Below are positions 1,898 through 36,948 of a DNA stretch of 53,050 nucleotides, piece after piece. The position numbers and the translations under genes were made by a program. Source of the DNA: Acrocarpospora catenulata. Lineage in GTDB: Bacteria; Actinomycetota; Actinomycetes; Streptosporangiales; Streptosporangiaceae. Below the pieces are notes generated by a model. It worked only from the letters and a program-made list of their open reading frames with translations, did not search any database and was not told the DNA's origin. Location of the stretch: positions 1 through 53,050 of the forward strand of contig NZ_JAHCST010000064.1 in assembly GCF_018476525.1 (NCBI RefSeq). The letters run 5' to 3'. Positions within the stretch are counted from its first letter, which is position 1. Each line of letters begins with the position of its first letter.

Positions 1898-2400
1898 CGG
1901 ACGCCGCTCCCCCAGACGCTCATCCCGTCCGCGACGGCCCCGCCGCCTCCTCACCTCGGACACTGGCTCGCACCTCCACATGCGATCAAGAGTCCGTCCA
2001 GGCACCCGCTGCACCGGGCGGACCCGCACCGTTTCCGGGCATCAGCCCTCTGTCGTGGTGCAATAGTTCAAGTCACGCAAGGTGTCCGACAAGACACACA
2101 ATGTGGCAATCCCTGCCCACCGCTGCGACCACAGACCGAAGCGGGACAACGACCAGAAGAACCGCCCACTGCCGGATGACCTGTGCGGCCATTCCCCACC
2201 CAGAGCCCGCCAGAGCCCTGCACGGCATCCACACACCGCGTGGACAGGGTGACCACACACTGACCACGATCACCAGGCGGCCCGACAACCTTCCTGTGGT
2301 GCAATGGCGGAAGCCGCCCGGGTATTCGGCAAGTCACCAGGCAGGGTCACGAGCACCACGACCGCACCGCAACCGCTCGACAGCCCCCCACGAGGAACAG
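1898..2400. promoter_or_regulatory. divergent intergenic region with GTGTC inverted repeat
   Basis: These 500 bp separate the minus-strand module from the plus-strand XRE regulator and should hold both promoters. An inverted repeat, GTGTC (2082-2086), six bases, GACAC (2093-2097), is a candidate operator. A related ten-base segment, GTGGTGCAAT, occurs twice, at about 2055-2064 and 2296-2305. No convincing gene was seen inside. Confidence 0.45.
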
Positions 2401-3714
2401 ATGACCACAGGATCGCCGCCCCACCGGAACGCCTTCCGCGCTCACCTGCTCGCCTGCGCCCTGCGCTGGTGGCGCGAGACCAGCCAGATGTCACTCCGCC
2501 AGGTGGCCGCAGCCATCCACACGGACCACTCCCACCTCGCCAAAATGGAACGCGGACTACGGCCGACACCACCCCACGTCATCGACCAACTCGACCGCAT
2601 CTACACCGCCAACGGTCAACTGGTGGCTCTCCACACCGCCATCACCCGACTCCACCGAGAGAGCACGCCCGACCTGGCATTCCACACTCAAGGCAAGGAC
2701 GAGGACATGGAACGCCGACAACTACTCCAACTCGCCGCCGCCACCGCCGGACTCGGAGCACTCGGAGCAGCGGGCGAACCCGTACGCCAGTTGCTGGACA
2801 TGACGGTCAACGGCCCGCACCGCAGCATCGAAGACTGGGAACTGGCCTGTGCCGATCACCTCCACGCGATCAACACCCGGCCCGCCGCCCAAGTCCACGA
2901 TGATCTCCTGGCTGACCTGGTGGCGATGCAGCGACAGCTACGCAGCGCCGATAGCGCCCACGTCGTCGAGTTGCACCGGATCACCGCTGTACTCGCCGCC
3001 TTCCACGCCAGCGTCTTGGTCCGCCTCGGGGAACCGGGATCCGCGCTCCGCTGGTACCGCACCGCACGCAACGCCGCCGACACCTCCGGCGATCTCGACC
3101 TGCGCTTGAGAATCCGCGCCCACGAGGCGGAACACAGCGCGTCCGGCCTCCGCGATGCGACCACAACCCTGCACTTGATCGAGAATGCCCTGCAAATCGC
3201 GGGTACGGCAGTGCGCCCGTCAGTCGGTCAGGTGTCACTCATCCGCGCCAAAGCCAAGACACTGGCTTTACTCGGTCGCCACGACGAAGCCCGCCACATG
3301 CTGCAAACTCTTCTCGACCTCGTGGCGAAAAGCGACCTGCCAGCGGTCCCCGGATTCTGGGAACCTGCCGATTACCGCATCTACGTCACCAAAAGCCAGG
3401 TGCTGTCCGCTGCGGGCGACGAAGCCGGATCCAGCCGGGCGCAAGAGCACGTGCTGACGGGCAGCCCTGCGGGGCACCACATCGCGGTCAACATCCGCCT
3501 TCACGCCGCACATTGCACCGTCGTCAACGGCGGCATCGACGAAGGAATGCGCCAAGCAGCCACAGTGATCGATTCCGTGCCAGGTCCTTACCGCAATATC
3601 ATGATCATGGAGACGGCGCGGCGAGTCTTCAACGCCGTACCCATTGCACAGCGGGAACGCCCGGTAGTCGGTGAATTCCGCGAAGTGCTAGCCCTAACCC
3701 CCGCTTCCAGTTGA
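2401..3714 (+). CDS. XRE-family HTH regulator with helical-repeat C-terminal domain
   Basis: The product is 437 aa. Residues about 14-70 form a Cro/CI-type helix-turn-helix (MSLRQVAAAIHTDHSHLAKMERG). Residues 104-122 carry an ERRQLLQLAAATAGLGALG segment, a twin-Arg-like hydrophobic stretch often seen in the middle of this actinobacterial HTH-TPR group. The rest (about 135-430) is all-helical and TPR-like. ATG 2401 follows GAGGAAC at a proper distance; upstream in-frame sequence is low quality. It is divergent from the four-wHTH module, so the two probably share the control region at 1898-2400. Such proteins are usually transcription regulators, some answering peptide signals; no ligand can be inferred here. 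Confidence 0.85.
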   Translation: MTTGSPPHRNAFRAHLLACALRWWRETSQMSLRQVAAAIHTDHSHLAKMERGLRPTPPHVIDQLDRIYTANGQLVALHTAITRLHRESTPDLAFHTQGKDEDMERRQLLQLAAATAGLGALGAAGEPVRQLLDMTVNGPHRSIEDWELACADHLHAINTRPAAQVHDDLLADLVAMQRQLRSADSAHVVELHRITAVLAAFHASVLVRLGEPGSALRWYRTARNAADTSGDLDLRLRIRAHEAEHSASGLRDATTTLHLIENALQIAGTAVRPSVGQVSLIRAKAKTLALLGRHDEARHMLQTLLDLVAKSDLPAVPGFWEPADYRIYVTKSQVLSAAGDEAGSSRAQEHVLTGSPAGHHIAVNIRLHAAHCTVVNGGIDEGMRQAATVIDSVPGPYRNIMIMETARRVFNAVPIAQRERPVVGEFREVLALTPASS

Positions 3715-3740
3715 GGTCAACCCTTTGCCTCCGGCGGGGG

Positions 3741-3782
3741 ATCCTGCGTCCAGGATGGCAGGAGCCCGCGCACACGCGCGGG
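3741..3782 (+). terminator. two tandem hairpins after the XRE gene
   Basis: ATCCTG (3741-3746) pairs with CAGGAT (3751-3756), and CCCGCGC (3765-3771) pairs with GCGCGGG (3776-3782). They sit 26 bp after the XRE stop codon and may end its transcript, but no T-run follows. Confidence 0.45.
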
Positions 3783-3804
3783 TGGCGTGGCGGCTGGGCT
3801 GAGA

Positions 3805-3960
3805 CCGGTCTGTCATCCCGCCCGCGATCACCTACGCGAAGCAAAGCAGTCCGACGCGGGGGCGTCCAGGTCGTTCGTCCGTAGGGCGCTCCACCTGGAC
3901 GCCCCCACGTCGGCCCGCTAGGCCCCGCTACGGGTGATCGCGGACGGGATGACAGACCGG
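3805..3960. repeat. 156-bp near-perfect palindrome (possible MITE-like element)
   Basis: The outer arms 3805-3832 and 3933-3960 are 28-bp inverted repeats with one mismatch. The inner arms 3851-3871 and 3893-3913 are 21-bp inverted repeats with one mismatch. All are centred on about 3882. The 18-19-bp spacers between outer and inner arms pair only partly, and the apical loop is 21 nt. The whole unit can fold into one long hairpin. No obvious target-site duplication flanks it. It could be a miniature inverted-repeat element, a replication or transfer site of an integrated element, or a very strong terminator. Confidence 0.85.
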
Positions 3961-4545
3961 GGGGAGAAAGTATGGAAGGAATCGGACACATCCCGCCGTA
4001 GTGCAGGGAACCGCGTCAGCGGACAACGCGGGTAAGAGGGTAGATGCCCATACTCACGACCCGGATCCGGGCCATCAGGCCAGGGGAGATGCCATCCGAG
4101 CAGCCAAAACACGGGAGCACACTGGCCCGTGTGTGGCCCGCGAATGCTGAGCTGGAGCGGGTCATAGCGGACAACAGTGAGACACCTCCCATGTCGAACG
4201 AACGGCATATACGCAGGTCAAAGCCCATTTTGAGGCATTGACCAGGGGGGTTACAGGGTCACCCCCGATGCCCTACCTCCATGGGTGGGTGGGATTTCAC
4301 GGCAACCGGGGTGGGCGGGCGGGACCCAAAGGCGTCGGGCCTACCGGCTACGTTCCGCTACGGGGTTGGGGGTGTGTATGCATGCTGGGATGGCCGGTGG
4401 ATCAGGTGGGTGCGCCCGGCCACAGGGGGTTGTGGGCGGGGGCGAGCCCTAGCGGGCGGCGCCGGGCGGGCGGCGCCGTGTGGACGCGCTCACGACGGAC
4501 GCGAGCGCGTCGTTTCCTCCCCCTAGGTCCTGCGTTCCCCCGCTG
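3961..4545. other. gene-poor, hairpin-rich stretch before bldC
   Basis: I see no convincing gene. Inverted repeats are: CCCGGATCCGGG (4060-4071); ACACGGG/CCCGTGT (4109-4115 and 4126-4132); 4246-4254 with 4258-4266 (one mismatch); and GACGCGCTC/GAGCGCGTC (4483-4491 and 4503-4511). The last is close to the bldC stop and is followed on the plus strand by GTTTCCTCC. A tandem copy of GGGCGGCGCCG lies near 4454-4478. The segment 4240-4480 is markedly G-rich on the plus strand. Confidence 0.6.
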
Positions 4546-4749
4546 CTACTCCGAGCGCTGCTGCGGAATCCCCGCGAGCAGCGCCCGGACCTCGGTCTCC
4601 CGGTAACGCCGGTGTCCGCCGAGGGTGCGGATGGACGTCAACTTGCCCGCCTTCGCCCACCGAGTGACGGTCTTGGGGTCGACGCGGAACATGGTTGCGA
4701 CCTCCGCCGGGGTGAGCAGCGGCTCGGCCTCGGGTGTACGAGCTGACAT
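4546..4749 (-). CDS. bldC: BldC, MerR-like developmental regulator
   Basis: The product is 67 aa and is recognised end to end as BldC: N-terminus MSARTPEAEPLLTPAEVA, a MerR-type helix-turn-helix at about 12-37, the wing TLGGHRRYRETEVRALL at about 42-58, and the C-terminus AGIPQQRSE. BldC is a one-domain MerR relative that binds head-to-tail on direct repeats and, in Streptomyces, delays entry into sporulation. ATG 4749 is preceded by GGAGGAGAGG eight bases upstream. Its neighbours (conserved hypothetical, Leu/Val dehydrogenase, DUF3073, purM, purF) match the usual bldC locus. Confidence 0.97.
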   Translation of the reverse strand: MSARTPEAEPLLTPAEVATMFRVDPKTVTRWAKAGKLTSIRTLGGHRRYRETEVRALLAGIPQQRSE

Positions 4750-4786
4750 TTGTGCGGCCTCTCCTCCGTGTGGACCGGCGACAGCG

Positions 4787-4815
4787 ATCCTGCGACTTAT
4801 CTTGGCGCTTGTCAC
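4787..4815 (-). promoter_or_regulatory. bldC promoter
   Basis: On the minus strand, GTGACA (4815-4810), 17 bases, then CAGGAT (4792-4787) match the actinobacterial housekeeping consensus (TTGACA, N17, TANNNT), with C in place of T at the first -10 base. The start would lie near 4780, giving a leader of about 30 nt with the strong ribosome site. Confidence 0.6.
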
Positions 4816-5070
4816 GGATGTCCCCCAATGATCCATAACGTGCGGTTTCTTGGACCATTTGCGGCATCACCCGATGTGACCATACAGCCACGTAGCGCGA
4901 TTGGCGAGCCCTAAGGGCGCAACGTCTCGACCACGTGTTGATGTCACGCTCGGTGATTCTAGCGACACGTTTCGTGGTATCGCAGTGAAAACGGCAAACT
5001 ACTCAGTTCGCAGTTGCGAGATCGGGCATCTCGTGACCCAAAACTGCACTTCAGCCCCATGCGTTGGGAC
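4816..5070. other. upstream region of bldC
   Basis: This is non-coding between bldC and the minus-strand gene ending at 5071. A short inverted repeat CGAGAT/ATCTCG (5017-5022 and 5028-5033) may end the transcript of the gene upstream. Nothing else was recognised. Confidence 0.4.
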
Positions 5071-5928
5071 TCAGTTGGCCGACTCCAGGCTCTGGATCGA
5101 CCGCCACCGGAGGATCACTCGCTGATACATCGCGAAGGCAAGTTCTTCCTGACCGTTGTCCAAACCCGTCAGAGCCGCGGCCAACTCGGCCACCGACTGG
5201 TCGGCCTGCAGGGTCTCGTCGTCCATCAGGTGCACCAGACCGCCGTAGTCCAGCTCCACCAGCGAGTGCGGATGGAACTCCTCCAGCCAGCGCCCCACGT
5301 CCTCCACGTCGGTGAGCGTGTCCACCTCCCCGATGTGCCGCCTGATCACCACCAGGGCCCGCGCCACCCGCTTGCGCGCCTGCGCCATCGAGGTCACGTA
5401 CAGCATGTTCCTGGCCGGGGCCATCGTGGTGCCCTCGGGAGTCTCCTCCGCGCGCAGCACCAGCCACCGCTCGGCCGAGTCGAACGGCACGAACCACGGG
5501 GTGGGCACATGCCAGGTGCTGGTCCTGATGTGCATGCGCAGCGACGGCTCCCCGCGCTTGAACCGGTCGAACTCGTCGGCGGTCCGCTCCGCCACCGCGG
5601 TGGGCACGAACCGGTCGGCCAGCTTCACCGGCATGCTCCCCCGGAAGGAGGCGAAGGCCAGCCAGGAGCGCAGCCTGCTCTGCCAGGGGCAGACGTACAG
5701 CACGTCGTCGACCCGGCGCAGGTAGGCGTTGTGGCTCTCCTTGCTGGGGGCGGGGAACGGGGGCACACGCAGGATGCGCCGCACGGCCTCCTCGTGCTCG
5801 ACCTCCAAGGCTCCGGCCCGCCTCGGGCGTTCCGGATTCTGGGCATATCTGGCCCAGGCCAGTTGGTCCTGCTCCGGGAAAGCGCTCAGCGGCTCGTAGA
5901 CGCGGAGGTAGGCGGCGTAGGGCAGCAC
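5071..5928 (-). CDS. conserved hypothetical protein of the bldC locus
   Basis: The product is 285 aa, soluble, with no signal peptide or membrane segment. It is rich in Arg/Glu and aromatic residues (for example MHIRTSTWHVPTPWFVPFDSA) and I know no catalytic motif in it. Its position between bldC and the Leu/Val dehydrogenase gene matches a conserved hypothetical of the Streptomyces bldC neighbourhood. GTG 5928 opens LPYAAYLRVYEPLSAF; the GAGGT upstream is too close to be ideal. A different frame starts with ATG 17 nt upstream and reads ARFEV just before a GTGTG, so the true N-terminus could be longer if a 2-nt slip is present. Function unknown. Confidence 0.8.
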   Translation of the reverse strand: MLPYAAYLRVYEPLSAFPEQDQLAWARYAQNPERPRRAGALEVEHEEAVRRILRVPPFPAPSKESHNAYLRRVDDVLYVCPWQSRLRSWLAFASFRGSMPVKLADRFVPTAVAERTADEFDRFKRGEPSLRMHIRTSTWHVPTPWFVPFDSAERWLVLRAEETPEGTTMAPARNMLYVTSMAQARKRVARALVVIRRHIGEVDTLTDVEDVGRWLEEFHPHSLVELDYGGLVHLMDDETLQADQSVAELAAALTGLDNGQEELAFAMYQRVILRWRSIQSLESAN

Positions 5929-6058
5929 ACCTCGAATCGTGCCATGTTAGAAGCGTCCGCGCAGTGCCCGTATCATGCGAATCCATGATCGTCGTTACCC
6001 TGGAGGGTGAGATCCGCCGCAATGGGGCGGCGGACAGAGGCGATCAGGAGTCACCACC

Positions 6059-7746: not shown

Positions 7747-8778
7747 TCAGACGTACCGGGCCTGGCCGGTGCCGGAGGCCACCTCGCCGAGGATGTAGGC
7801 GGGGAGGCCGCGGGACGCCAGGAGGGCGAGGGCGTTGGTGACCTCGGCGGCGGGGAGGATGGCGCACATGCCGATGCCGAGGTTGAAGGTCTGGTCCATG
7901 TCGGGTTGCGGGATTCGGCCCCGGGTGGCGAGGGCCTCGAAGATGGGAGGCGGGGTCCAGGCGGAGCGGGTGAGGAGGGCGTCCGCCGTACCGGGAAGGG
8001 AACGCGAGAGGTTGGCGCAGAGGCCGCCGCCGGTGATGTGGGCGAAGGCGTGGACGGGGACCGCGTCGAGGAGAGCCAGGCAGTCCTGGGAGTAGATGCG
8101 CGTGGGTTCGAGAAGTTCCTCACCGAGGGAGCGGGAGAGCTCGGGAAGGGTGGCGTCCAGGTCCAGGTCGGCGGTTCTGAGGACGTGCCGGACCAGGGAG
8201 TACCCGTTGGAGTGCACCCCGGAGGAGGCCATGCCGAGCACGAGGTCACCGGGCCGCACGAGATGCGGCCCGAGCAGGCGGTCGGCTTCCACGGCTCCGG
8301 TGCCCGCCCCGGCGAGATCGTACTCATCGGGCCCCATGGCACCGGGGTGCTCCGCGGTCTCCCCACCGATCAACGCACAACCGGCGAGCCGGCACCCTTC
8401 CGCGACACCCCCCACAATCTCCGCGATGCGCTCCGGCACCACTTTCCCGCACGCGATGTAGTCGGTCATGAAGAGCGGTTCCGCCCCACAGACCACCAGA
8501 TCATCGACAACCATCCCGACCAGATCGATTCCGATCGTGTCGTGCTTGTCCATGCGCTGGGCCAGCATGACCTTGGTGCCCACACCGTCGGTCGAGGTGG
8601 CCAGCAACGGCCGCCGGAACCGCAGCAGCGCCGACACGTCGAACAACCCGGCGAACCCGCTCGCGTCGTCCAGGACCTCCGGTCGCCGCGAGCGCGCCAC
8701 CTTCGATTTCATCAACTCGACGGCACGATCCCCGGCCGCGATGTCCACCCCGGCAGCGGCGTACGAGCCCGAACTCAT
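7747..8778 (-). CDS. purM: phosphoribosylformylglycinamidine cyclo-ligase (AIR synthetase)
   Basis: The product is 343 aa, normal PurM length. It closes FGAM to AIR with ATP, the fifth step of purine synthesis. Signatures seen are the N-terminal YAAAGVDIAAGDRAVELMK, TSTDGVGTKVMLA, GIDLVGMVVDDLVVCGAEPLFMTDYIACGK, GGETAEHPG and HITGGGLCANLSRSLP. ATG 8778 overlaps the end of purF by four bases, so the two are translationally coupled. PurL and PurQ, which supply its substrate, are encoded at 33670-36602. Confidence 0.97.
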   Translation of the reverse strand: MSSGSYAAAGVDIAAGDRAVELMKSKVARSRRPEVLDDASGFAGLFDVSALLRFRRPLLATSTDGVGTKVMLAQRMDKHDTIGIDLVGMVVDDLVVCGAEPLFMTDYIACGKVVPERIAEIVGGVAEGCRLAGCALIGGETAEHPGAMGPDEYDLAGAGTGAVEADRLLGPHLVRPGDLVLGMASSGVHSNGYSLVRHVLRTADLDLDATLPELSRSLGEELLEPTRIYSQDCLALLDAVPVHAFAHITGGGLCANLSRSLPGTADALLTRSAWTPPPIFEALATRGRIPQPDMDQTFNLGIGMCAILPAAEVTNALALLASRGLPAYILGEVASGTGQARYV

Positions 8779-21265: not shown

Positions 21266-22078
21266 GTGGCTATCAGGTTGCCTGGCGGGCGTTCGATCGG
21301 TCTGTTAACGGTTGGCGCGCTGGCCGGTTCGATTTTCGCCGTCGGGGGGATGGCGACAGCCTCGTCCGCCGCTGACACCGTCATCTACGCGTGTGTCAAC
21401 AAGAAGACCCGGTACGCGCGCATCGTGAACGTCACCACCACGTGCAAGCCGACCGAGTACAAGATCAGCTGGGGCAAGGAGGGCCCGCAGGGCCCGATGG
21501 GCCTCCAGGGCATGACCGGCGCCCAGGGTCCGCAGGGTCTGCGCGGACTTCAGGGCCCGAAGGGTGACACGGGCGCGACGGGCCCCCAGGGTCCCAAGGG
21601 CGACACCGGCGCGGCTGGCGCCACCGGCCCCGCCGGCCCGGCCGGCCCTGCCGGCCCGCAGGGTCCGAAGGGTGACAAGGGTGCGCCGGGTGAGGATGGC
21701 GCCAGGGGTGCGACGGGTGCGACGGGCCCGCAGGGCGCGACCGGCCCCGCCGGCCCGCAGGGCCCGAAGGGCGACACGGGTCCGCAGGGCCCCAAGGGTG
21801 AGACCGGCCCGGCCGGCACCGGCGGCTCGGTGACCCCCACGCTCAAGACCGCCAACTTCTCGTTCAGCAGCAGTGGCGAGGATGACGCCACGGTGAGCTG
21901 CGACAACGGCAAGCGCGCTGTCGGCGGCGGGTACGACGTCACCAACAACACCCACAAGCTCAGCAAGGTGATCGCGAGCCGTCCTGCCACCAACCTCACC
22001 GGCTGGGTCGTGACGCTTGAGCACACCAGCAGCGGCAGCCAGCGCATAGGTGGCACGGTTTACGTGATCTGCGTCTAG
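21266..22078 (+). CDS. secreted collagen-like Gly-X-Y repeat protein
   Basis: The product is 270 aa. An N-terminal signal segment (about 9-36, cleavage near SSA-AD) is followed by a short domain with [14 protein letters not shown] and a second Cys at 60. Then come 37 unbroken Gly-X-Y triplets (residues 73-183) rich in [10 protein letters not shown], and a globular C-terminal domain (about 189-270) with Cys212 and Cys269. The repeats should form a collagen triple helix; the C-terminal part probably trimerises or binds a ligand. GTG 21266 has a strong upstream purine tract. It stands alone with its own terminator. Related Cys-x-Cys-flanked collagen-like proteins are common in actinomycetes; function unknown. 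Confidence 0.92.
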
Positions 22079-36901: not shown

Positions 36902-36948
36902 CGGCCCGGCCCCCGGCCCGTCGACCTGACGGGCCGGGGGCCGGGCCG
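36902..36948 (+). terminator. strong terminator of the purQL operon
   Basis: A perfect 21-bp stem (36902-36922 with 36928-36948) closes on a 5-nt loop and is followed by a T-containing tail TCTGTCTTCC. It lies seven bases after the stop codon. Confidence 0.92.

Follow-up and report, generated by a model that had tools for sequence, protein, structure and literature searches.

The long palindrome at positions 3805-3960 of the analysed stretch of Acrocarpospora catenulata DNA (53,050 nucleotides, hereafter the window) belongs to a family of hairpins that integrative and conjugative elements with rolling-circle replication (AICEs) contain as a module, nearly always one way round relative to rep. 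AICEs are widespread conjugative elements of antibiotic-producing actinomycetes. With a probability that we put at roughly two in three, the palindrome is the single-strand origin (sso, or minus origin) of such a rolling-circle AICE, in which a hairpin of the displaced strand would use its stem as a scaffold and dock a host priming factor at its conserved loop. This reading builds on the hairpin family, the covariation of its stem, its strand bias, its association with element genes, its orientation and the ends of the island that carries it, all of which were computed here.

The outer arms of the element (3805-3832 and 3933-3960) are 28 bp long with one mismatch (27/28 paired), and the inner arms (3851-3871 and 3893-3913) are 21 bp long, again with one mismatch (20/21 paired), as a sequence-only reading of this DNA had claimed; the centre that it took both pairs to share holds to half a base (3882.5 for the outer and 3882.0 for the inner arms). 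Its description of the whole 156 bp as a near-perfect palindrome is right for the arms and wrong for the element throughout, which is 79% self-complementary overall with gaps allowed, because the outer-to-inner segments of the two halves are out of register. Ungapped, the element scores 42/78 pairs, a value equalled at two other places in the window, and the ungapped score was dropped as a mark of distinction, not being outstanding. In a comparison of the 53-kb window with itself (cut-off E <= 1e-8), the palindrome is the top inverted match (E 6e-29). Folded as single-stranded DNA, both strands of 3805-3960 form a single hairpin, at -69.1 kcal/mol (z -9.1) for the plus and -79.1 kcal/mol (z -11.5) for the minus strand, and 0/200 dinucleotide shuffles are as stable in either case; the minus strand, which corresponds to the rep-sense strand in homologous elements, thus folds better by 10 kcal/mol. 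Additionally, the core that matches the covariance model R1 (3840-3924) scores 84.7 bits on the minus strand and 46.3 on the plus strand. The conserved apical motif GTCGTTCGTCC-n-GGGCGCTCCAC lies on the plus strand at 3870-3894, and in our reading comprises an internal loop (3872-3875 / 3889-3892), a 5-bp mini-stem (3876-3880 / 3884-3888) and a variable 3-nt tip.

Two other repeats were seen in the window: the sole further inverted self-match under that cut-off, at 36902-36948 (47 bp, 89%, E 6e-10), which does not match the hairpin covariance model, and a pair of overlapping direct repeats (21515-21789), each about 170 bp long and 72% identical to the other.

A search of the whole A. catenulata genome for other copies, as proposed in the sequence-only reading, brings up three more, on contigs C26, C29 and C150, with 77-78% identity. 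A first survey gave matches in 13/60 genomes (own genome included), and when folded these display a long paired stem, different in sequence each time, below a nearly constant tip. The exact tip GTCGTTCGTCC-n(2-6)-GGGCGCTCCAC occurs in 84/297 family genomes and the reversed control pattern in none, so that the earlier claim that palindromes of this size are rare in chromosomes does not hold for this family. Furthermore, a scan of species genomes yields at least 119 hairpin stretches from at least six actinomycete families (NCBI taxonomy), the genera among the matches listed (L057-L136) including Nonomuraea, Micromonospora, Asanoa, Actinomadura, Streptomyces, Actinacidiphila, Pseudonocardia and Geodermatophilus; of 121 loops in these stretches, 112 form 11 or more of the first 15 pairs and the other 9 fewer. 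The covariance model finds the hairpin in 44/100 family genomes, a search in which, as in all those of more than 40 genomes, stricter filters applied and the weakest matches may be due to chance, and in 8 genomes at E <= 1e-5 in a phylum-wide sample of 198 (own included). The palindrome is therefore no assembly artefact, a doubt that the sequence-only reading had raised, because homologous hairpins recur in many other genomes.

Phage carriage, considered as the vehicle of the hairpin, was set aside after the exact loop proved absent from the viral contigs searched and phage records gave no match. Hairpins occasionally lie close together: L135 and L256 each hold two about 3 kb apart in the same orientation, and pairs also occur 2.2 kb apart (G057, L298) and, inverted, 0.4 kb apart (L117). 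Such closely spaced pairs are perhaps stacked element ends.

Selection acts on the structure of the hairpin rather than on the sequence of its stem. Alignment A1 comprises 47 of 48 selected diverse members (L157, with one arm replaced, was omitted), in which 97.2% of the cells at 31 pairs are paired, compared with 72.0% in shuffles, and two-sided changes occur at 25/27 pairs of the long helix. The covariation score is 0.635 vs 0.148, 0/500 shuffles reach the real value on any of five measures, and structures slid along the same alignment leave 24-47% paired. From the outside inwards, the outer arms of a family member are followed by an inner stem (median length over 175 unique hairpins about 25 bp), the conserved internal loop, the 5-bp mini-stem and a tip of variable sequence, mostly 4 nt long and 3 nt in the window copy. 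That alignment A1 and the set of 175 hairpins contain the exact loop is true by construction, their members having been chosen by pattern, and the mini-stem is invariant in the 47-member set because its members were picked by the loop. In the three other copies of the same genome, the second pair of the mini-stem is changed on both sides (alignment, by eye), and the hairpin of the plasmid pMR2 has a variant tip.

The strand that folds is the rep-sense one. Across 124 distinct 15-bp stems, 53 G.T mismatches fall on the strand opposite the written loop motif, that is the rep-sense strand, vs 22 on its complement; pairs 20 and 22 show G.T on the rep-sense strand in 95/175 and 99/175 hairpins. Moreover, the rep-sense strand folds better in 162/175 hairpins with DNA parameters and in 147/175 with RNA parameters. 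Upstream of the hairpin, a third copy of the outer arm with at least 9 shared bases is found in 37/164 hairpins, compared with 8% when arms are swapped between hairpins; being confined to a subset, it was kept out of the model. A recurring box, GCCTCCGGCGGGGGC ... GGATG, precedes the hairpin, for example at 3727-3770 of the window, and repeats the outer right arm in a subset, so that an alternative pairing is possible there.

Plasmid records with the hairpin include pMR2 of Micromonospora rosaria (11.2 kb) and 9.9-kb Streptomyces longwoodensis plasmids, and in those with a gene table (the tables being incomplete) no annotated gene lies under the match. pMR2 encodes RepSA, an FtsK/SpoIIIE protein, a phage-type integrase, an excisionase and a UTRA protein, and judging from these genes is an AICE in circular form. 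Both replicons have a Rep of rolling-circle type, RepSA in pMR2 and a Rep_1-like protein in the S. longwoodensis plasmid, and a rolling-circle mode of the hairpin carriers is predicted from these Rep families.

The gene neighbourhood was compared between 77 hairpin regions of up to 20 kb, covering 79/107 listed hairpin places (the other 28, to which the window's own belongs, are for the most part close to the end of a contig), and 39 control regions, 37 of which share a genome with a hairpin region, by two-round profile searches seeded with pMR2 proteins (Pfam RepSA, FtsK_SpoIIIE and Phage_integrase) and the S. longwoodensis GntR. Genes for each of the searched families concentrate around the hairpin: a RepSA-like Rep in 34/77 regions vs 1/39 controls, FtsK in 35/77 vs 0/39, Int in 43/77 vs 2/39, the pMR2-type regulator in 32/77 vs 0/39 and GntR in 40/77 vs 2/39. 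Read along the rep-sense strand, the components typically run hairpin, cargo, GntR, regulator, FtsK, Rep, Xis and Int. With the loop motif on the plus strand, the nearest gene is on the minus strand for Rep in 35/35 cases, FtsK in 36/36 and Int in 44/45, and all matched frames divide between minus and plus as 43/0 for Rep, 38/0 for FtsK, 79/2 for Int, 32/2 for the regulator and 41/8 for GntR, counts that are drawn from related elements and hence not independent. The same orientation holds in the 8-kb loci of the species scan together with pMR2, for FtsK in 15/16 and for Rep in 5/5, with one Rep counted twice and some elements shared with the 77-region set. Orientation is thus fixed relative to the rep gene (35/35, and 17/19 in the coordinate match described below), the count referring to the gene and not to the direction of replication itself. 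The remaining 43/77 regions have no RepSA-like gene within reach, and may be relics, cut regions, carriers of other Rep types or places where the hairpin has another role.

In the reciprocal direction, RepSA is present in 80/100 family genomes, compared with 44/100 for the hairpin model. A coordinate match with 150 RepSA genes among the matches listed places a RepSA gene within 20 kb of 19/83 hairpins, on the same strand in 17 and on the opposite strand in 2, the latter counting against the sso reading; 12 of these 19 pairs are absent from the 77-region count and agree in strand in 10/12, and 7 of the 17 same-strand pairs are also part of that count. Hairpin and Rep are separated by a variable distance of about 3 to 13 kb, and in one case the hairpin is on the opposite side of Rep. 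Only 18/150 RepSA genes among the matches listed have a hairpin within 20 kb; contig ends conceal some pairs, yet with so low a count the hairpin is not the universal sso of RepSA elements, and most of these must use something else. Hairpins are commoner beside lower-scoring RepSA proteins, at 8/34 under 365 bits vs 10/116 above among the matches listed. In A. catenulata itself, contig C139 carries an AICE core of GntR, regulator, FtsK, RepSA, Xis and Int on one strand near a tRNA-Gly gene (L315, 5300-13800), and R1 detects no hairpin on that contig; a search of its first 16 kb for another long hairpin gave two weak inverted repeats only. The missing hairpin is not decisive, because the contig starts only 5.3 kb upstream of the GntR gene. 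By this analysis the hairpin would be one type of sso among several. Firmicute plasmids likewise have single-strand origins of several types.

In the window, the palindrome is part of a larger recurring unit, a block of about 570 bp (3735-4307) that is common to all four same-genome copies with 75-92% identity between them. The contig opens with a repeat (1-472) with which C150 also ends (96% over 272 bp) and C26 starts (85%), and small pieces of which occur on other contigs, including the RepSA-bearing C140 and C100. It is followed by a gene on the minus strand for a GntR-family regulator with two matched GntR stretches (514-1890), which has homologues on the AICE contig C139 and on two of the hairpin contigs, C150 and C26, and which lies on the side and strand relative to the hairpin that most AICE GntR genes occupy. 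Between this gene and the hairpin, a gene on the plus strand (2101-3714) encodes an XRE-type HTH protein, placed as cargo, with a weak TPR match below Pfam's cut-off. Beyond the common block, a right junction zone (4308-4447) leads to backbone common to four congeners, which resumes at 4448-4479, and to an HTH_17/MerR gene on the minus strand (4546-4836), which we take to be BldC-like and which belongs to the chromosomal backbone adjoining the island, outside it. On the hairpin contigs C150 (L185, 13930-15813) and C29 (L184, 1-1503), a long frame contains tandem repeats, each of about 50 residues and with an HTH look (by eye), has GntR-like parts at its end, and stands on the hairpin side where GntR sits in two other copies.

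Of the function or recent arrival that the sequence-only reading had taken as implied, arrival by insertion gains support: the backbone upstream of the bldC-like gene is kept in 4/4 congeners and the island is absent there in 4/4. In the congener L323, a TetR gene (745-1428) adjoins the bldC-like gene and is preceded by the start of a LacI-family gene. The TetR part searched in the window's genome gives short weak matches only and none at this place, which suggests that the TetR gene was lost or displaced with the island. The LacI gene of the window's genome is found on contig C32, where a tyrosine-type integrase and an HTH_17 frame, belonging to the same family as the pMR2 excisionase, come after it; the other junction is in the window, where GntR, the XRE protein and the hairpin precede the bldC-like gene. 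From gene content and order, the simplest reading would be a single island of AICE type flanked by the LacI-family and bldC-like genes, with hairpin and int in their usual places and on their usual strands. Both contigs break off within this island, so that its middle, where Rep and FtsK would be expected, is not covered; RepSA and FtsK genes are present elsewhere in the A. catenulata genome. A search for att repeats of this island gave short similar stretches with no clear core.

The S. longwoodensis plasmid allows the hairpin to be set against pIJ101, to which its proteins are related at 86% identity for KorA (the GntR protein), 68% for SpdB, 56% over 88 aa for SpdA2, 54% for Tra and 33% for Rep; the pIJ101 SpdA2 was taken as the 135-residue frame 7970-8377, assigned by the length given in PMC4170104. 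The Rep of the S. longwoodensis plasmid matches Pfam Rep_1 at 30.3 bits, below the cut-off of 33.2, and has no match with RepSA at E <= 0.001. KorA ends at 4808 and SpdA2 starts at 5302, with the hairpin (5136-5221) in the interval. According to the excerpted text of PMC4170104, pIJ101 carries rep, then spdA2, then sso, and loss of sso makes single strands accumulate. Since spdA2 separates rep from sso there, the hairpin sits on the sso side of spdA2. The clt of pIJ101 is described, in the excerpt of PMC3583192, as close to korB, and with clt near korB and pIJ101 itself being without the hairpin, the position between KorA and SpdA2 cannot alone separate sso from clt. A scan of pIJ101 found no loop motif, and its sso interval has no convincing match to the model; the best model matches are the spdA2 palindromes (8127-8197), outside the KorA-SpdA2 interval.

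The mechanism envisaged under the sso reading would begin with an excised, replicating AICE, one strand of which would be nicked by Rep and displaced as single-stranded DNA; the displaced strand we take, from other plasmids, to be the rep-sense strand. On it, the palindrome sequence would fold into a long hairpin whose stem would be a mere scaffold, any pairing sequence being sufficient, and would expose its conserved, strand-specific internal loop with the 5-bp mini-stem. There a host priming factor may dock, and the complementary strand would start from this point; such docking on the displaced strand would fix the orientation of the hairpin to rep and leave its distance free. Free stem and fixed, strand-specific internal loop fit a docking site on displaced single-stranded DNA, and the hairpin is best read as a new sso family of putative function. 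Of the functions that the sequence-only reading had bracketed together as a transfer or single-strand origin, the sso is the one favoured by the evidence and the transfer site the less favoured. Nothing encountered in these analyses spoke for a telomere, another of its options. As far as the consulted portions of the sources go, second-strand synthesis is begun by host factors at the sso (PMC5714925, PMC4170104), Rep plays no part in this initiation (PMC5714925), sso1 of ICEBs1 is active in one orientation only (PMC4595007) and the lagging-strand start of pSN22 is reportedly independent of RNA polymerase (Suzuki et al. 2004, mentioned in PMC4170104). Since the pSN22 start is reported in that excerpt to be RNA-polymerase-independent, a primase would, by conjecture, be the likely docking partner. 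More tentatively, and with a shade less than even confidence, the hairpins may constitute a new sso class spread over at least six actinomycete families, in which a giant sequence-free stem and a strand-specific loop and mini-stem would dock an RNA-polymerase-free host primer, and which, being shared by unrelated Reps, may be a host-range determinant of AICEs and pIJ101-like plasmids.

Covariation, a fixed strand and a G.U/G.T bias would equally be expected of a structured RNA of the element, an untranslated leader or small RNA made from the rep-sense strand. This alternative is unlikely, given that a search of window 2000-6000 against Rfam gave nothing above a family cut-off (the top matches, to microRNA models, score about half of the required value or less) and that the canonical layout puts the hairpin kilobases upstream of GntR on the rep-sense strand; moreover, in L163 and L164 the hairpin seems, by eye, to lie just ahead of a plus-strand gene, the transcript of which would carry the worse-folding strand. 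Distinctly unlikely is a transfer site (clt) or another double-stranded site bound by the FtsK-like TraB or a further element protein, although FtsK/TraB is among the strongest neighbours (35/77 vs 0/39) and korB is presumably located on the KorA side of spdA2. Free variation of the stem with its pairing alone kept is not required of a double-stranded site, and the loop stays constant beside different Rep types. In the passages available from PMC4170104 and PMC3583192, the clt loci described differ from plasmid to plasmid and contain short direct repeats, in some cases accompanied by inverted repeats.

Hairpins with a conserved loop are typical of nick sites, and the greater frequency of the hairpin beside lower-scoring RepSA proteins (8/34 vs 10/116 among the matches listed) would suit a double-strand origin at which Rep nicks. 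That function is nevertheless improbable: the hairpin is not tied to one Rep, an identical loop occurring beside RepSA-like genes and beside the Rep_1-like protein, which argues against a Rep nick site, and the hairpin is missing near most RepSA genes among the matches listed, its distance to Rep is variable (about 3 to 13 kb) and it once lies on the other side. A MITE (non-autonomous transposon), which the sequence-only reading had offered, or a repeat present by chance inside mobile elements would account for multiple, palindromic and dispersed copies, some of them without any searched mobile gene in reach; against this, the block common to the same-genome copies exceeds the palindrome, with homology extending about 350 bp beyond it, stem sequences drift and are not kept between lineages, and AICE genes keep one orientation, fixed to Rep in 35/35, so that the explanation is hardly credible. 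A MITE ending at its terminal inverted repeats was rejected as a candidate, the homology (3735-4307) overshooting the arms at 3805 and 3960; no pair of filled and empty sites differing by the hairpin alone came to light.

A hairpin with a conserved tip as the sso would offer a testable docking site for actinomycete priming, a marker for AICEs and AICE relics (the model finds it in 44/100 family genomes) and possibly a part for better-behaved rolling-circle vectors. In the literature searched, we found no account of how the displaced AICE strand is converted to double strand. The excerpts of the AICE survey PMC3218068 contain no sso hairpin of such a kind, and no description of the hairpin was found in the available parts of open-licence PubMed Central texts, a body from which the older plasmid literature is mostly absent.

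Among known systems, pSAM2-type AICEs (RepSA, TraB/FtsK, Int, Xis and regulator) are the carriers of the hairpin, with pMR2 as an example. The sso (sti) of pIJ101 and the pSN22 start resemble it as sites on small conjugative rolling-circle actinomycete elements, and on the pIJ101 relative the hairpin lies on the sso side of spdA2; unlike the pIJ101 sso, however, which has no convincing model match, the hairpin family consists of one very long hairpin with a conserved tip. ICEBs1 sso1 and the pBAA1-type minus origins of Firmicutes are, as characterised in the consulted part of PMC4595007, likewise structured, orientation-dependent second-strand starts, in the former case on an integrative and conjugative element. 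They comprise three stem-loops that are alike in sequence and structure according to that excerpt, whereas the hairpin family described here presents one long stem that is free in sequence.
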